Assembly (NCBI RefSeq): GCF_024653915.1
Contig: NZ_JANLGY010000009.1
Coordinates: 62,001 to 126,000 of the forward strand
Direction: 5' to 3'
Length of the DNA stretch: 64,000 bases
Source of the DNA: Sulfuricaulis sp.
Lineage (GTDB): Bacteria; Pseudomonadota; Gammaproteobacteria; Acidiferrobacterales; Sulfurifustaceae
Shown: positions 39,393-41,539 of the stretch, one piece after another
How positions within the stretch are numbered: the first letter of the stretch is position 1
Layout of the letters: every line of letters starts with the position of its first letter
Notes under the pieces: generated by a model
Told to the model about the DNA's origin: nothing
The model's input: the letters and a program-made list of their open reading frames with translations, nothing else
The model's database searches: none
Position numbers and translations under genes: made by a program

Positions 39393-39461
39393 GGAGAGAT
39401 ACCGAAGCGGTCACAACGGCGCTGACTCGAAATCAGGTGTGCAAAACGCCAGAGGGTTCGA
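39393..39461 (+). pseudogene. broken tRNA-Ser(CGA): 5' part up to the T-loop
   Basis: The sequence follows the intact tRNA-Ser(CGA) at 39702 through acceptor 5' strand, D-arm, anticodon arm (loop CTCGAAA) and variable arm, ending GGGTTCGA. Eight or so differences, several in the variable arm, show decay. After the T-loop a 182-bp structured insert follows, then ATCCCTCCC (39644-39652) resumes; the 3' acceptor strand is missing. Confidence 0.8.
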
Positions 39462-39643
39462 CAAGATCGCTGGGGTGAGGCGCAACGTTTGCGATTCATT
39501 GAATCGCGTTTCGCCGAACGGGCTTGCCATGGATGGCAAGCCCTGGAGTTCTTAGCGAGGCAGGGAAAACCGAGCTTAGAACTGCCCCGAACGCCGCGCC
39601 AGCGGCGGCCCCGAAGGGGCGAGGCGCAGGGACGCGCCGAGTA
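39462..39643 (+). mobile_element. T-loop insert E1 in the broken tRNA-Ser(CGA)
   Basis: 182 bp rich in hairpins: GGGCTTGCC ATGGAT GGCAAGCCC (39520-39543), CGCCGC GCCA GCGGCG, GCCCC GAA GGGGC (39608-39620), and GGCGC AGGGAC GCGCC (39623-39638), ending GCCGAGTA. The last ~60 bp are nearly identical to insert E2 at 41322. No reading frame. Probably a small non-autonomous repeat element; mechanism unknown. Confidence 0.6.
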
Positions 39644-39685
39644 ATCCCTCCCGCTATTAAATTAAGCTCAAGACACGATTGTTGA

Positions 39686-39691
39686 TATAAT
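39686..39691 (+). promoter_or_regulatory. -10 box of the intact tRNA-Ser(CGA)
   Basis: TATAAT ten bases before the tRNA 5' end; a weak TTAAGC lies 18 bp further up. Confidence 0.5.
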
Positions 39692-39701
39692 TTCTTTTCC
39701 C

Positions 39702-39790
39702 GGAGAGGTACCGAAGCGGTCACAACGGCGCTGACTCGAAATCAGATGGGCGGAAACGCCACGGGGGTTCGAATCCCTCCCTCTCCGCCA
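39702..39790 (+). tRNA. tRNA-Ser(CGA)
   Basis: Complete cloverleaf: acceptor GGAGAGG pairs with CCTCTCC, long class II variable arm (GGCG GAAA CGCC), anticodon loop CTCGAAA with anticodon CGA, T-arm GGGGGTTCGAATCCCTC, encoded CCA end. Followed two bases later by a strong hairpin terminator. Confidence 0.95.
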
Positions 39791-39792
39791 AT

Positions 39793-39837
39793 TTAAAACA
39801 ATAAGGGGGCACATACGTGCCCCCTTATTGTTTTAAA
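39793..39837 (+). terminator. terminator of tRNA-Ser(CGA)
   Basis: TTTAAAACAATAAGGGGGCA pairs almost perfectly with TGCCCCCTTATTGTTTTAAA, a stem of about 20 bp. Confidence 0.85.
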
Positions 39838-39840
39838 GTT

Positions 39841-39949
39841 GGCCGATGGAATGGCATTCGAACCCTTTAGGGTTCGGAATCCTGACGTGCATGGATGCAC
39901 TAATGTCGCGAGAGCACAGGGATGTGCGGAGCGACCTCCCTCTCCGCCA
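39841..39949 (+). repeat. E3: further tRNA-Ser-derived fragment with double hairpin
   Basis: Contains T-arm pieces in both orientations (GCATTCGAACCCT and AGGGTTCGGAATCC), the two hairpins GTGC ATGGAT GCAC (39887-39900) and GCAC AGGGAT GTGC (39914-39927) enclosed by GTCGC/GCGAC, and a tRNA-Ser 3' end CCTCCCTCTCCGCCA (39935-39949). It is a remnant, not a functional tRNA. Confidence 0.6.
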
Positions 39950-39956
39950 GTCAAAC

Positions 39957-39986
39957 AAAAAGGGGCCTTCTTATGGCCCCTTTTTT
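39957..39986 (+). terminator. rho-independent terminator after E3
   Basis: AAAAAGGGGCC TTCTTAT GGCCCCTTTTTT. It resembles the terminator after tRNA-Ser(GGA) and supports the view that E3 is the end of a former tRNA-Ser gene. Confidence 0.85.
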
Positions 39987-40079
39987 ATTGACCTGTAAAA
40001 CATGGATTCGAGCACAAAGAGCGACTTATCGGGGATGTTCTACTATATGGAATGTCCCTTACAAATTTATGGTTGTCGC

Positions 40080-41111
40080 ATGGATAAGAACACCCTCAAA
40101 ACCCTGATCCCCATCAATTCGCTGACACCTGAAAATTTCAGGGAGCTGGCGGCCGAGGCTGTCATCGAGAATGTGACTGCCGGGAGTCAACTGTTCAAGC
40201 AAGGTGACCGCGACAATCAATCTATATTCCTGTTGTCGGGAGAAGTAGCACTTTCTACAACCGATACCACTGACAGCCGTAATGTCGTTGCCGGTACCGA
40301 CGAGGCGCGTTACGCGCTCGCTCAGCTCAAGCCGCGCCAATACACCGGGACTGCCAAGACCCCCGTTACCGTCGCCTGGGTGGACAGTGCCACGCTGGAC
40401 CGCTTGCTCACCTGGGATCAGACCACCGGTTATGAAGTTACTGAATTCGATGGCAGCCAGGACCCGGAATGGATGATACGCATGTTGCGCAGCGAAACAT
40501 TCCAGAAACTGCCGCCTTCCAATATCAACGCCCTGTTTGCCCGCTTTGAGCCAGTCGAGGTCAAGGCCAATCAGGTCATCATCCGGCAGGGCGATGCGGG
40601 CGACTTCTACTACATCATTAAAACCGGCAAAGCCAACGTGTCACGCAAGGCAGAGAAAGATGGCAAGGTTTCTGTGGTCGGACAATTGAGCGAAGGTGAT
40701 GGATTTGGCGAGGAAGCGTTATTGTCGGGTGCGCCGCGCAATGCCACGGTGGTGATGGCCGCGGAGGGTATTCTCATGCGTCTGGCCCGGAAAGATTTCG
40801 ATGGGCTGATGCGCGAACCGCTGGTGAAATGGGTGACGCTGGATCAGGCCAAGACCTTGGCGCAGCAGGGAGCCGGGCTGCTCGACGTGCGTACCGAAGA
40901 TGAATTTCGCAACGGCACCGTCAAGGGCAGCATAAATCTGCCACTGACTATGTTGCGGCGCAAGGCAGCGGAGCTTGATTCAAGGCGCCACTATGTCGTC
41001 CTTTGTCAGACTGGCAGTCGCAGTTGTGCGGCGGCGTTCCTGCTGAGCCAGCGTGGTTTTGAAGTGTCCGTGTTGCGCGGCGGCCTGAATGGATTGACGC
41101 GCAACGTCTGA
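40080..41111 (+). CDS. double cyclic-nucleotide-binding / rhodanese fusion protein
   Basis: 343 residues from the ATG at 40080; ATGs at 40047 and 40002 are alternatives, none with a strong ribosome site. Two cNMP-binding-like domains (about 10-110 and 140-250; the second has IIRQGDAGDFYYIIKTGKAN and GEEALLSGAPRNATV, a good phosphate-binding cassette) precede a rhodanese domain (about 255-340) with active-site loop CQTGSRSC. Soluble, no transmembrane segment. The first domain is degenerate. It may link a cyclic nucleotide or redox signal to sulfur transfer; substrate unknown. Confidence 0.85.
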   Translation: MDKNTLKTLIPINSLTPENFRELAAEAVIENVTAGSQLFKQGDRDNQSIFLLSGEVALSTTDTTDSRNVVAGTDEARYALAQLKPRQYTGTAKTPVTVAWVDSATLDRLLTWDQTTGYEVTEFDGSQDPEWMIRMLRSETFQKLPPSNINALFARFEPVEVKANQVIIRQGDAGDFYYIIKTGKANVSRKAEKDGKVSVVGQLSEGDGFGEEALLSGAPRNATVVMAAEGILMRLARKDFDGLMREPLVKWVTLDQAKTLAQQGAGLLDVRTEDEFRNGTVKGSINLPLTMLRRKAAELDSRRHYVVLCQTGSRSCAAAFLLSQRGFEVSVLRGGLNGLTRNV

Positions 41112-41248
41112 TTTTCATCATAGAGTTAATTCAACAGCATAAATCCTCGGCATTCTTTCCTGCGCCGTGTCAGATCGGGATTGCGGAGAAGTGATGGGTG
41201 GTTTACCCTTGCCGTCCCGTTTTGGCACGTGGTGTCAATGATTATCCC

Positions 41249-41321
41249 GGAGAGGTGTCCGAGCGGTTTAAGGAGCACGCTTGGAAAGTGTGTGTACGCC
41301 AAAAACGTACCGAGGGTTCGA
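41249..41321 (+). pseudogene. broken tRNA-Ser(GGA): 5' part up to the T-loop
   Basis: 73 bases that match the intact tRNA-Ser(GGA) at 41449 at 71 positions and end GGGTTCGA. An 78-bp insert follows, then ATCCCTCCC (41400-41408) and unrelated DNA. The 3' acceptor strand is lost, so it cannot fold into a charged tRNA. The near identity points to a recent event or gene conversion. Confidence 0.85.
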
Positions 41322-41399
41322 CGAGGATTGCCGGGAGCAATGCCGAACGCCGCGTCAGCGGCGGCCCCGCAGGGGCGAGGCACAGGGATGTGCCGAGTA
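41322..41399 (+). mobile_element. T-loop insert E2 in the broken tRNA-Ser(GGA)
   Basis: 78 bp: ATTGC CGGGA GCAAT, CGCCGC GTCA GCGGCG, GCCCC GCA GGGGC (41364-41376), GGCAC AGGGAT GTGCC (41379-41394), ending GCCGAGTA. Nearly the same as the end of E1; the last hairpin shows one compensatory pair change (G-C in E1, A-T here). Inserted at the same T-loop position as E1. Confidence 0.6.
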
Positions 41400-41448
41400 A
41401 TCCCTCCCTCGTGTGTTAGGTTAGGCGGGATTCGATTTTTACAGTTAC

Positions 41449-41539
41449 GGAGAGGTGTCCGAGCGGTTTAAGGAGCACGCCTGGAAAGTGTGTGTACGCC
41501 AAAAGCGTACCGAGGGTTCGAATCCCTCCCTCTCCGCCA
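41449..41539 (+). tRNA. tRNA-Ser(GGA)
   Basis: Complete class II tRNA: acceptor GGAGAGG/CCTCTCC, anticodon loop CTGGAAA (anticodon GGA), long variable arm (GTACGCCAAAAGCGTAC), T-arm GAGGGTTCGAATCCCTC, encoded CCA. Reads UCC and UCU codons. A perfect palindromic terminator follows at once. Confidence 0.95.

Follow-up and report, generated by a model that had tools for sequence, protein, structure and literature searches.

Hairpin elements in broken tRNA-Ser copies of Sulfuricaulis appear to be related to the RtT repeats of Escherichia coli

Two tRNA genes were found by ARAGORN in a 64-kb window, the stretch of Sulfuricaulis sp. DNA analyzed here (64,000 nucleotides of contig NZ_JANLGY010000009.1), and each of them, tRNA-Ser(CGA) and tRNA-Ser(GGA), is preceded by a broken copy carrying an insert. 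What are these inserts, called E1 and E2, and how did copies of two different serine tRNAs come to be split at the same point, each beside an intact gene? A first-pass annotation of this DNA knew of no described element of this exact type. We find that the inserts are real, neither due to chance nor isolated, and that they are not of an undescribed kind, but a variant of the RtT, or tyrT, repeats of E. coli, with a much wider setting. Our reading, to which we give a probability of roughly 60%, is that they are RtT-type, non-coding hairpin elements, mobile now or in the past, and that the loci retaining an intact tRNA are those that survive.

The two upstream partial copies span 39393-39652, with E1, and 41249-41410, with E2 (Table 1). 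As the first-pass annotation had noticed, both are split at the same point of the T-loop, TTCGA^A: the left flank ends with TTCGA, the right flank begins with AATCC, and one A is present twice. The insert lengths that it gave, 182 and 78 bp, equal our 181 and 77 nt once the A repeated at the right end is counted. Its nearly shared insert end of about 60 bp corresponds to 92% identity over 59 nt, 3 of which belong to the flank (E 1.2×10−17 in a whole-genome search), and the loss of the acceptor 3' strand is seen in the remnant after the insert: of the 18 nt found 3' of TTCGA in the intact gene, it retains only 9 (E1) or 11 (E2). Removal of the insert would leave no complete tRNA, as both the acceptor 3' strand and CCA are absent, and an intron was therefore rejected. 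The longest open reading frame overlapping the inserts is 96 aa, and no integrase gene lies inside the element. The picture of a small, apparently non-coding element that occupies one and the same T-loop site of different tRNAs, each time beside an intact tRNA, is supported, and it recurs at other tRNAs and in other genomes. Other Rfam matches in the window (sX4, a plastid 3' untranslated region, microRNAs) were taken as tRNA sequence or chance.

Further copies were searched for with a covariance model, R1, made from 15 inserts picked by eye, E2 and 14 from relatives; a loose regular-expression harvest gave mostly false hits, and was therefore not used for the model. In the alignment of these 15 inserts, the element consists of four hairpins over approximately 70 to 85 nt, with changing stems, and both-sided changes were found in 14 of the 24 stem pairs. 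The covariation score was 0.328, a value reached by none of 500 shuffles (mean 0.112), although this count is not a probability because the aligned sequences are related, and sliding the partners by 1 to 3 columns gave 0.069 at most. The stems are the conserved feature of the element. When folding was compared with shuffled sequences, the E2 stretch had a z value of −2.79 (2 of 200 shuffles as good), and the E1 core alone was unremarkable (z −1.10, 26 of 200 as good).

In E. coli MG1655, R1 matched the three repeats behind tyrV (E 1.8×10−6, 3.1×10−6 and 3.7×10−6, within 2.1 kb), the first of which is annotated rttR, and with E 0.003 a fourth sequence between two tRNA-Tyr genes. These repeats are laid out as an inverted T-arm, GGTTCGA (GGTTCGG in one), the hairpins, GAGT (GAAT in the fourth) and AATCCTTCCCCCACCACCA, the junction reading GAGT followed directly by AATCCTTCCCCCACC with the inverted T-arm nearby. 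RtT has been described as an RNA that the tyrT transcript releases and that may act in the stringent response (PMC4986893, PMC2965389). The Rfam model of RtT, RF00391, matched 35 of 184 genomes of the class at E 0.001, 12 of them above the curated cut-off (45 bits), and E. coli alone among 14 control genomes; R1 matched 65 of the same 184 at E 10−4. Among the RF00391 loci examined, 28 of 30 follow a tRNA (Gln, Tyr or Ser), starting no more than 80 bp downstream. At GAGT junctions, RF00391 scored 64.0 bits (L209) and 56.6 bits (L265, at a Serratia tRNA-Lys), and R1 matches fell inside RF00391 matches in 11 pairs, hand-picked from both lists. As a side observation, the annotated E. coli protamine-like gene tpr (L321 1488-1577) lies entirely within the rttR repeat, and its status as a gene may merit re-examination.

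How close, then, are the window copies to RtT? Both have the hairpin core and the TTCGA/AATCC T-loop junction in common. The likeness to rttR extends to the four-hairpin core, to GGTTCGA on the left (GGTTCGG in one unit), to GAGT/AATCC with a copy of the neighbor tRNA 3' end on the right, to an inverted T-arm nearby and to tandem reiteration. However, the tRNA 3' part is kept in E. coli, whereas the window copies sit on the tRNA 5' part, upstream of the intact tRNA, and stay below the RtT gathering score (27.6 versus 45 bits for E2, E1 being unreported at E≤1). No RF00391 match was obtained at E 0.001 in the genome that holds the window (G000). The RtT layout, a tRNA 3' end placed downstream, is that of other G000 copies, at Gln(CTG), Glu(CTC) and Arg(CCG), rather than of the two in the window; it is E. 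coli-like downstream of Gln(CTG) and more composite downstream of Glu(CTC). Because they score below the cut-off and carry the opposite half of the tRNA, we classify the window copies as a 5' mirror-image variant of RtT with a homologous core rather than as RtT members.

The tRNA-Ser(CGA) locus was compared within the genus, as the first-pass annotation had proposed for tRNA loci of relatives, G006 being outside the comparison. A broken copy precedes the intact tRNA-Ser(CGA) in G000, G005 and G002, with inserts that are strongly different and a site that is identical. In G008, G001 and G004, the gene is uninterrupted, with no broken copy in the preceding 330 nt, and the same is true of G003, where the contig ends at the gene. 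The promoter-like stretch before the gene in these last four genomes resembles the one that precedes the broken copy in the first three. In G007, the intact gene stands behind a second type of promoter.

T-loop-split copies in other genomes were collected with a pattern joining GGTTCGAC to hairpin 1, which gave at least 119 stretches; the 119 analyzed hold 131 matches, and the counts of scorable upstream and downstream copies refer to this sample. All but two of the 80 stretches for which the taxon was listed come from Gammaproteobacteria or unplaced Proteobacteria. Matches in Glycomyces (L235) and in an archaeal metagenome-assembled genome (L281) have no same-strand tRNA in the locus, and look like chance. 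A same-strand tRNA was found within 400 bp of 109 matches, further off for 3, and not in the locus for 19. The 109 tRNA-linked matches comprise 90 downstream and 19 upstream of the nearest tRNA, and in 68 of them the element is followed by at least 9 nt of the T-stem/acceptor sequence of that very tRNA, versus 23 of 1090 when tRNAs of other kinds were drawn instead.

Copies were scorable when the 3' match reached 7 nt (68 downstream) or 6 nt (13 upstream), leaving 22 and 6 unscorable. The full 18-nt 3' part was present in 41 of the 68 scorable downstream copies, a few of which may owe it to a second intact tRNA within reach (L232), versus none of the 13 upstream ones. Conversely, the median 5' match was 8 nt downstream, 7 of them forced by the pattern, versus 47 nt upstream. 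In four upstream copies (L253, L263, L273 and L274), the whole 5' part is identical to the intact tRNA (57, 57, 68 and 59 nt), and an inverted T-stem copy follows directly in 4 of 13 upstream examples inspected by eye (L211, L227, L263 and L274). A contrary case is the upstream copy of Gln(TTG) in G011, which retains most of the 3' part (L190). Partial copies thus extend outward from the T-arm: the downstream class keeps the T-arm and the 3' part, and the upstream class the 5' part up to the T-arm end. The literature search, which covered its sources in part and in which RtT figures as an RNA family, did not reveal upstream tRNA copies split in the T-loop; this does not prove that none has been described, as the 1991 RtT paper and the older tyrT papers lay outside it. 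What we take to be new is the spread of the element, the mirror class, the sites in D- and anticodon loops, and a single boundary rule.

This rule holds inside as well as outside tRNAs, and can be written A[C...GAGT](C)A. Among copies more than 300 bp away from a tRNA, which still include a few RNA-gene copies (5S copies and an Arg pair), the preceding base was A in all 42 (in two, once the model start was shifted by one base), and the following bases were A or CA in 38 of 42; the background frequencies in the window are 0.21 (left) and 0.28 (right). The copies read mostly start with C... and finish with GAGT, GAGC or GCGT, and their commonest site is TTCGA^A of the T-loop. Others lie in the anticodon loop of Ser(TGA), in G000 and G011 (L159, L184), and, in other families, in an anticodon loop (L357) and a D-loop (L364), both seen by eye, a D-loop being also the site in L146. 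The 5S rRNA site is GTGA^AAGTAGG in G000 and in G005. Together with the non-tRNA copies, these anticodon- and D-loop sites exclude a specificity for the T-loop only. The choice of loops is no proof of an RNA-level mechanism such as reverse splicing, because the AA steps of these tRNA genes lie in loops anyway, and the promoter-like 5' flank included in upstream copies L138 and L184 also speaks against such a proof.

Exclusive targeting of the T-arm, as read from the first-pass annotation, is not supported by these loop sites or by the distribution of copies in G000 (2.73 Mb). R1 gave 20 matches there at E≤1, two of them weak (0.08 and 0.66): 7 have a tRNA no more than 300 bp away (Ser(CGA), Ser(GGA), Ser(TGA), Gln(CTG), Arg(CCG) and, for two of them, Glu(CTC)), 1 in a duplicate of the 5S rRNA 3' end, and 12 elsewhere. 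The annotation had regarded a core lying mainly outside tRNAs as evidence against its proposal, and these 12 matches do go in that direction, whereas the 7 near tRNAs and the one in the 5S copy do not. Of 26 matches in two single-contig relatives, G005 and G011, 12 have a tRNA within 300 bp, two further ones carry tRNA-Arg 3' ends at about 1.8 kb from an intact tRNA-Arg(ACG), and one is in a 5S copy. Class-wide, with the best match per genome in 28 genomes, 13 of 28 loci are near a tRNA. All these shares are approximate, as the number of candidates scored with R1 was limited to 150 for each genome, and to 26 in the class-wide search. The element core is associated with tRNAs, and not confined to them.

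Among the copies away from tRNAs, one lies in the open frame of recG in G000 (L166 1501-1573). Aligned with a solved RecG chain, residues 1-200 and 226-420 of the query correspond to 297-497 and 498-692, which are contiguous in the chain, leaving 25 extra residues at the element; this looks like the insertion of a discrete unit. The element within a duplicated 5S rRNA 3' end is found in L029 401-470 (G000 C25), where a second terminator-like hairpin follows, and at G005 C1:2380926-2380995. The longer hairpin block in the 5' half of E1 is also found at G000 C5:212156, beside tRNA-Gln(CTG), and at C4:13636, with no tRNA nearby.

The explanation that we prefer, an RtT-type hairpin element that is or was mobile, starts from the observed structure, homology, boundary rule, outward direction of the partial copies and uninterrupted loci of the same genus. 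The element would insert between two As, in most cases where GA or CA precedes, and since the AA steps of the tRNA-Ser genes read lie in loops, its copies turn up in the T-, anticodon and D-loops. As an insertion that broke the only copy of a tRNA would be lost, partial copies persist beside an intact gene; selection for the intact tRNA may in this way shape the surviving loci. Insertion and local duplication could occur together, by template switching or by unequal exchange at the hairpins. A bolder form of this explanation, which we hold to be doubtful although worth stating, is that of a self-sparing, gene-less insertion: a class-wide family would insert between As in tRNA and 5S loops and make the partial duplication in the same step, one intact gene always being left. 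RtT would then be one descendant of this family, and the window copies its mirror-image product.

Several points weigh against the mobile-element explanation. No matching transposase was found and no transposition was seen; Y1 transposases (Y1_Tnp) occur in 21 of 31 genomes, including G000 with 4 matches, and were not found in G015 (95% complete), which bears the element. About half of the R1 matches are away from tRNAs, and even the tRNA share may be inflated, the training set of R1 being mostly T-loop copies. The boundary rule is less strict within 300 bp of a tRNA (A on the left in 28 of 32 copies, A or CA on the right in 31 of 32), although some of the left misses, those of G000 copies, arise because the 5' hairpin is replaced and the model stops short of the true end. 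Nor are the copies that follow the rule all independent, since L162, L163 and L164 have longer flanks in common. Finally, the coupling of insertion and duplication was judged from insert-bearing tRNA copies only, and the upstream copy of tRNA-Ser(GGA) is found in several genera, which would also fit a selected functional RNA.

Such a role is the basis of one alternative, in which the units are kept for a function of the transcript, as proposed for RtT in the stringent response, their mobility being old or absent. Besides the Ser(GGA) locus, the covarying stems favor it, as do the Actinobacillus RtT RNAs seen on Northern blots (PMC4986893). A mobile hairpin element would show stem covariation too, however, and the varying presence, position and content of the units within one genus, as well as the copies in recG and at other non-tRNA sites, make this alternative quite improbable. 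The broken copies could otherwise be deletion derivatives, produced when, in a tRNA1-RtT-tRNA2 array, the stretch separating the T-arm of tRNA1 from the T-arm piece of the RtT unit was deleted, so that a tRNA 5' part was placed on the hairpins. E. coli has such an array, tyrT-RtT-tyrV, with direct GGTTCGA repeats, and a tyr tRNA and RtT are reported to have been lost in one E. coli strain (PMC12584984). Yet a complete tRNA 3' end should then follow the hairpins, and it does so in 0/13 scorable upstream loci, though L190 keeps most of it; the anticodon- and D-loop sites (L159, L184, L357 and L364) and the non-tRNA copies stay unexplained, and we regard such deletions as very unlikely. Least probable in our opinion, and highly unlikely, are micro-islands, that is, remnants of integrase-catalyzed insertions at T- and anticodon-loop sub-sites, the displaced tRNA fragment being the far end. 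The sub-sites and the presence of an intact gene with a displaced fragment, mostly a 3' one, are as in tRNA islands (PMC4383910), but inserts of 77 and 181 nt hold no integrase gene, and the hairpin module is also found in recG, in the 5S copy and elsewhere, at sites that share nothing but the A/A rule.

Tandem duplication of tRNA genes is common, and two separate events might suffice: the tandem duplication, then the arrival of a hairpin repeat in the redundant copy, and its decay. The broken Ser(CGA) copy in G000 has indeed drifted from the intact gene, and landings outside tRNAs obey the same boundary rule. Against this order of events, not one of the 13 scorable upstream copies has the full 3' part, and a 5' match of at least 20 nt is found in just 2 of the 68 scorable downstream copies. 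Since some of the upstream copies match the intact tRNA without a single difference over 57-68 nt, the truncation is not a matter of slow decay. We therefore judge duplication before insertion unlikely, and retain the mobile RtT-type element, with its loci surviving beside an intact tRNA, as the explanation of the window copies.

Rickettsia palindromic elements (RPEs) insert inside genes, and the present repeats also have copies in open frames (the R1 element in recG; E3, a second repeat family described below, in a transporter-like gene). RPEs and CGTC-tagged repeats (PMC3733652) resemble our element as short, palindromic, non-autonomous repeats, and differ from it in having one hairpin rather than four; ours has mostly C...GAGT ends, no CGTC or GTAG tag, and a tie to tRNA fragments. 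The GTAG tag at the palindrome end that marks REP/RAYT systems was not present in the copies read. tRNA-borne genomic islands (Islander, PMC4383910) likewise leave an intact target gene and a displaced fragment and use T-loop and anticodon-loop sub-sites, whereas the window inserts, of about 0.1-0.2 kb, have no integrase gene and no cargo. The hairpin-forming elements of sponge mitochondria are said to be repeated and to invade the genome (PMC2800124); they belong to another compartment, and the likeness considered here is that of the repeated hairpins.

These results tie a long-known peculiarity of the E. coli tyrT operon, its repeats and RtT RNA, to a widespread class of elements with a boundary rule and a mirror form. 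They suggest that mobile hairpins may persist in essential RNA genes next to an intact copy, and account for a source of tRNA fragments able to confuse annotation. The loci of the same genus with and without insert provide material for studying the origin of such insertions.

Table 1. Positions of the tRNA-Ser genes, their partial copies and the hairpin elements in the 64-kb window.
Feature	Position	Strand	Support
5' part of broken tRNA-Ser(CGA)-like copy, from tRNA nt 1 to TTCGA of the T-loop	39393..39461	+	
Insert E1, 181 nt, hairpin element whose 5' half bears an additional long hairpin block; RtT-like core, 39561-39642	39462..39642	+	
Remnant AATCCCTCCC, T-stem 3' strand, without acceptor 3' strand	39643..39652	+	
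Intact tRNA-Ser(CGA)	39702..39790	+	ARAGORN
Inverted T-arm fragment, GGGTTCGAATGCC on the minus strand	39853..39865	-	
E3, second hairpin repeat family, joined to displaced tRNA 3' end	39883..39934	+	
Displaced tRNA-Ser 3' end CCTCCCTCTCCGCCA, then second terminator-like hairpin	39935..39949	+	
5' part of broken tRNA-Ser(GGA) copy, up to TTCGA	41249..41321	+	
Insert E2, 77 nt, four-hairpin RtT-like element	41322..41398	+	R1 E 3.3×10−12 (E2 belongs to the R1 training set); RtT sub-threshold, 27.6 bits
Remnant AATCCCTCCCTC, remaining acceptor 3' strand absent	41399..41410	+	
Intact tRNA-Ser(GGA)	41449..41539	+	ARAGORN
Inverted T-arm fragment, 3' of the tRNA terminator	41592..41604	-	

Past the terminator-like hairpin of tRNA-Ser(CGA), the segment 39853-39990, which the first-pass annotation had overlooked, contains the inverted T-arm fragment, E3, and the displaced tRNA 3' end with its own terminator-like hairpin. 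E3 belongs to a family of hairpin repeats of about 52 nt, with further copies in the genome at L044, L046 and other loci. Fusions of E3 to tRNA pieces are found both at 39935-39949 and in L046, where the piece is a broken copy of tRNA-Gln(TTG), and another E3 copy lies within the open frame of the transporter-like gene, which we take to encode ZIP. In L152 (G021), two tandem 5' pieces of tRNA-Ser(GGA) precede the intact gene, each interrupted within its anticodon arm by a different hairpin repeat.

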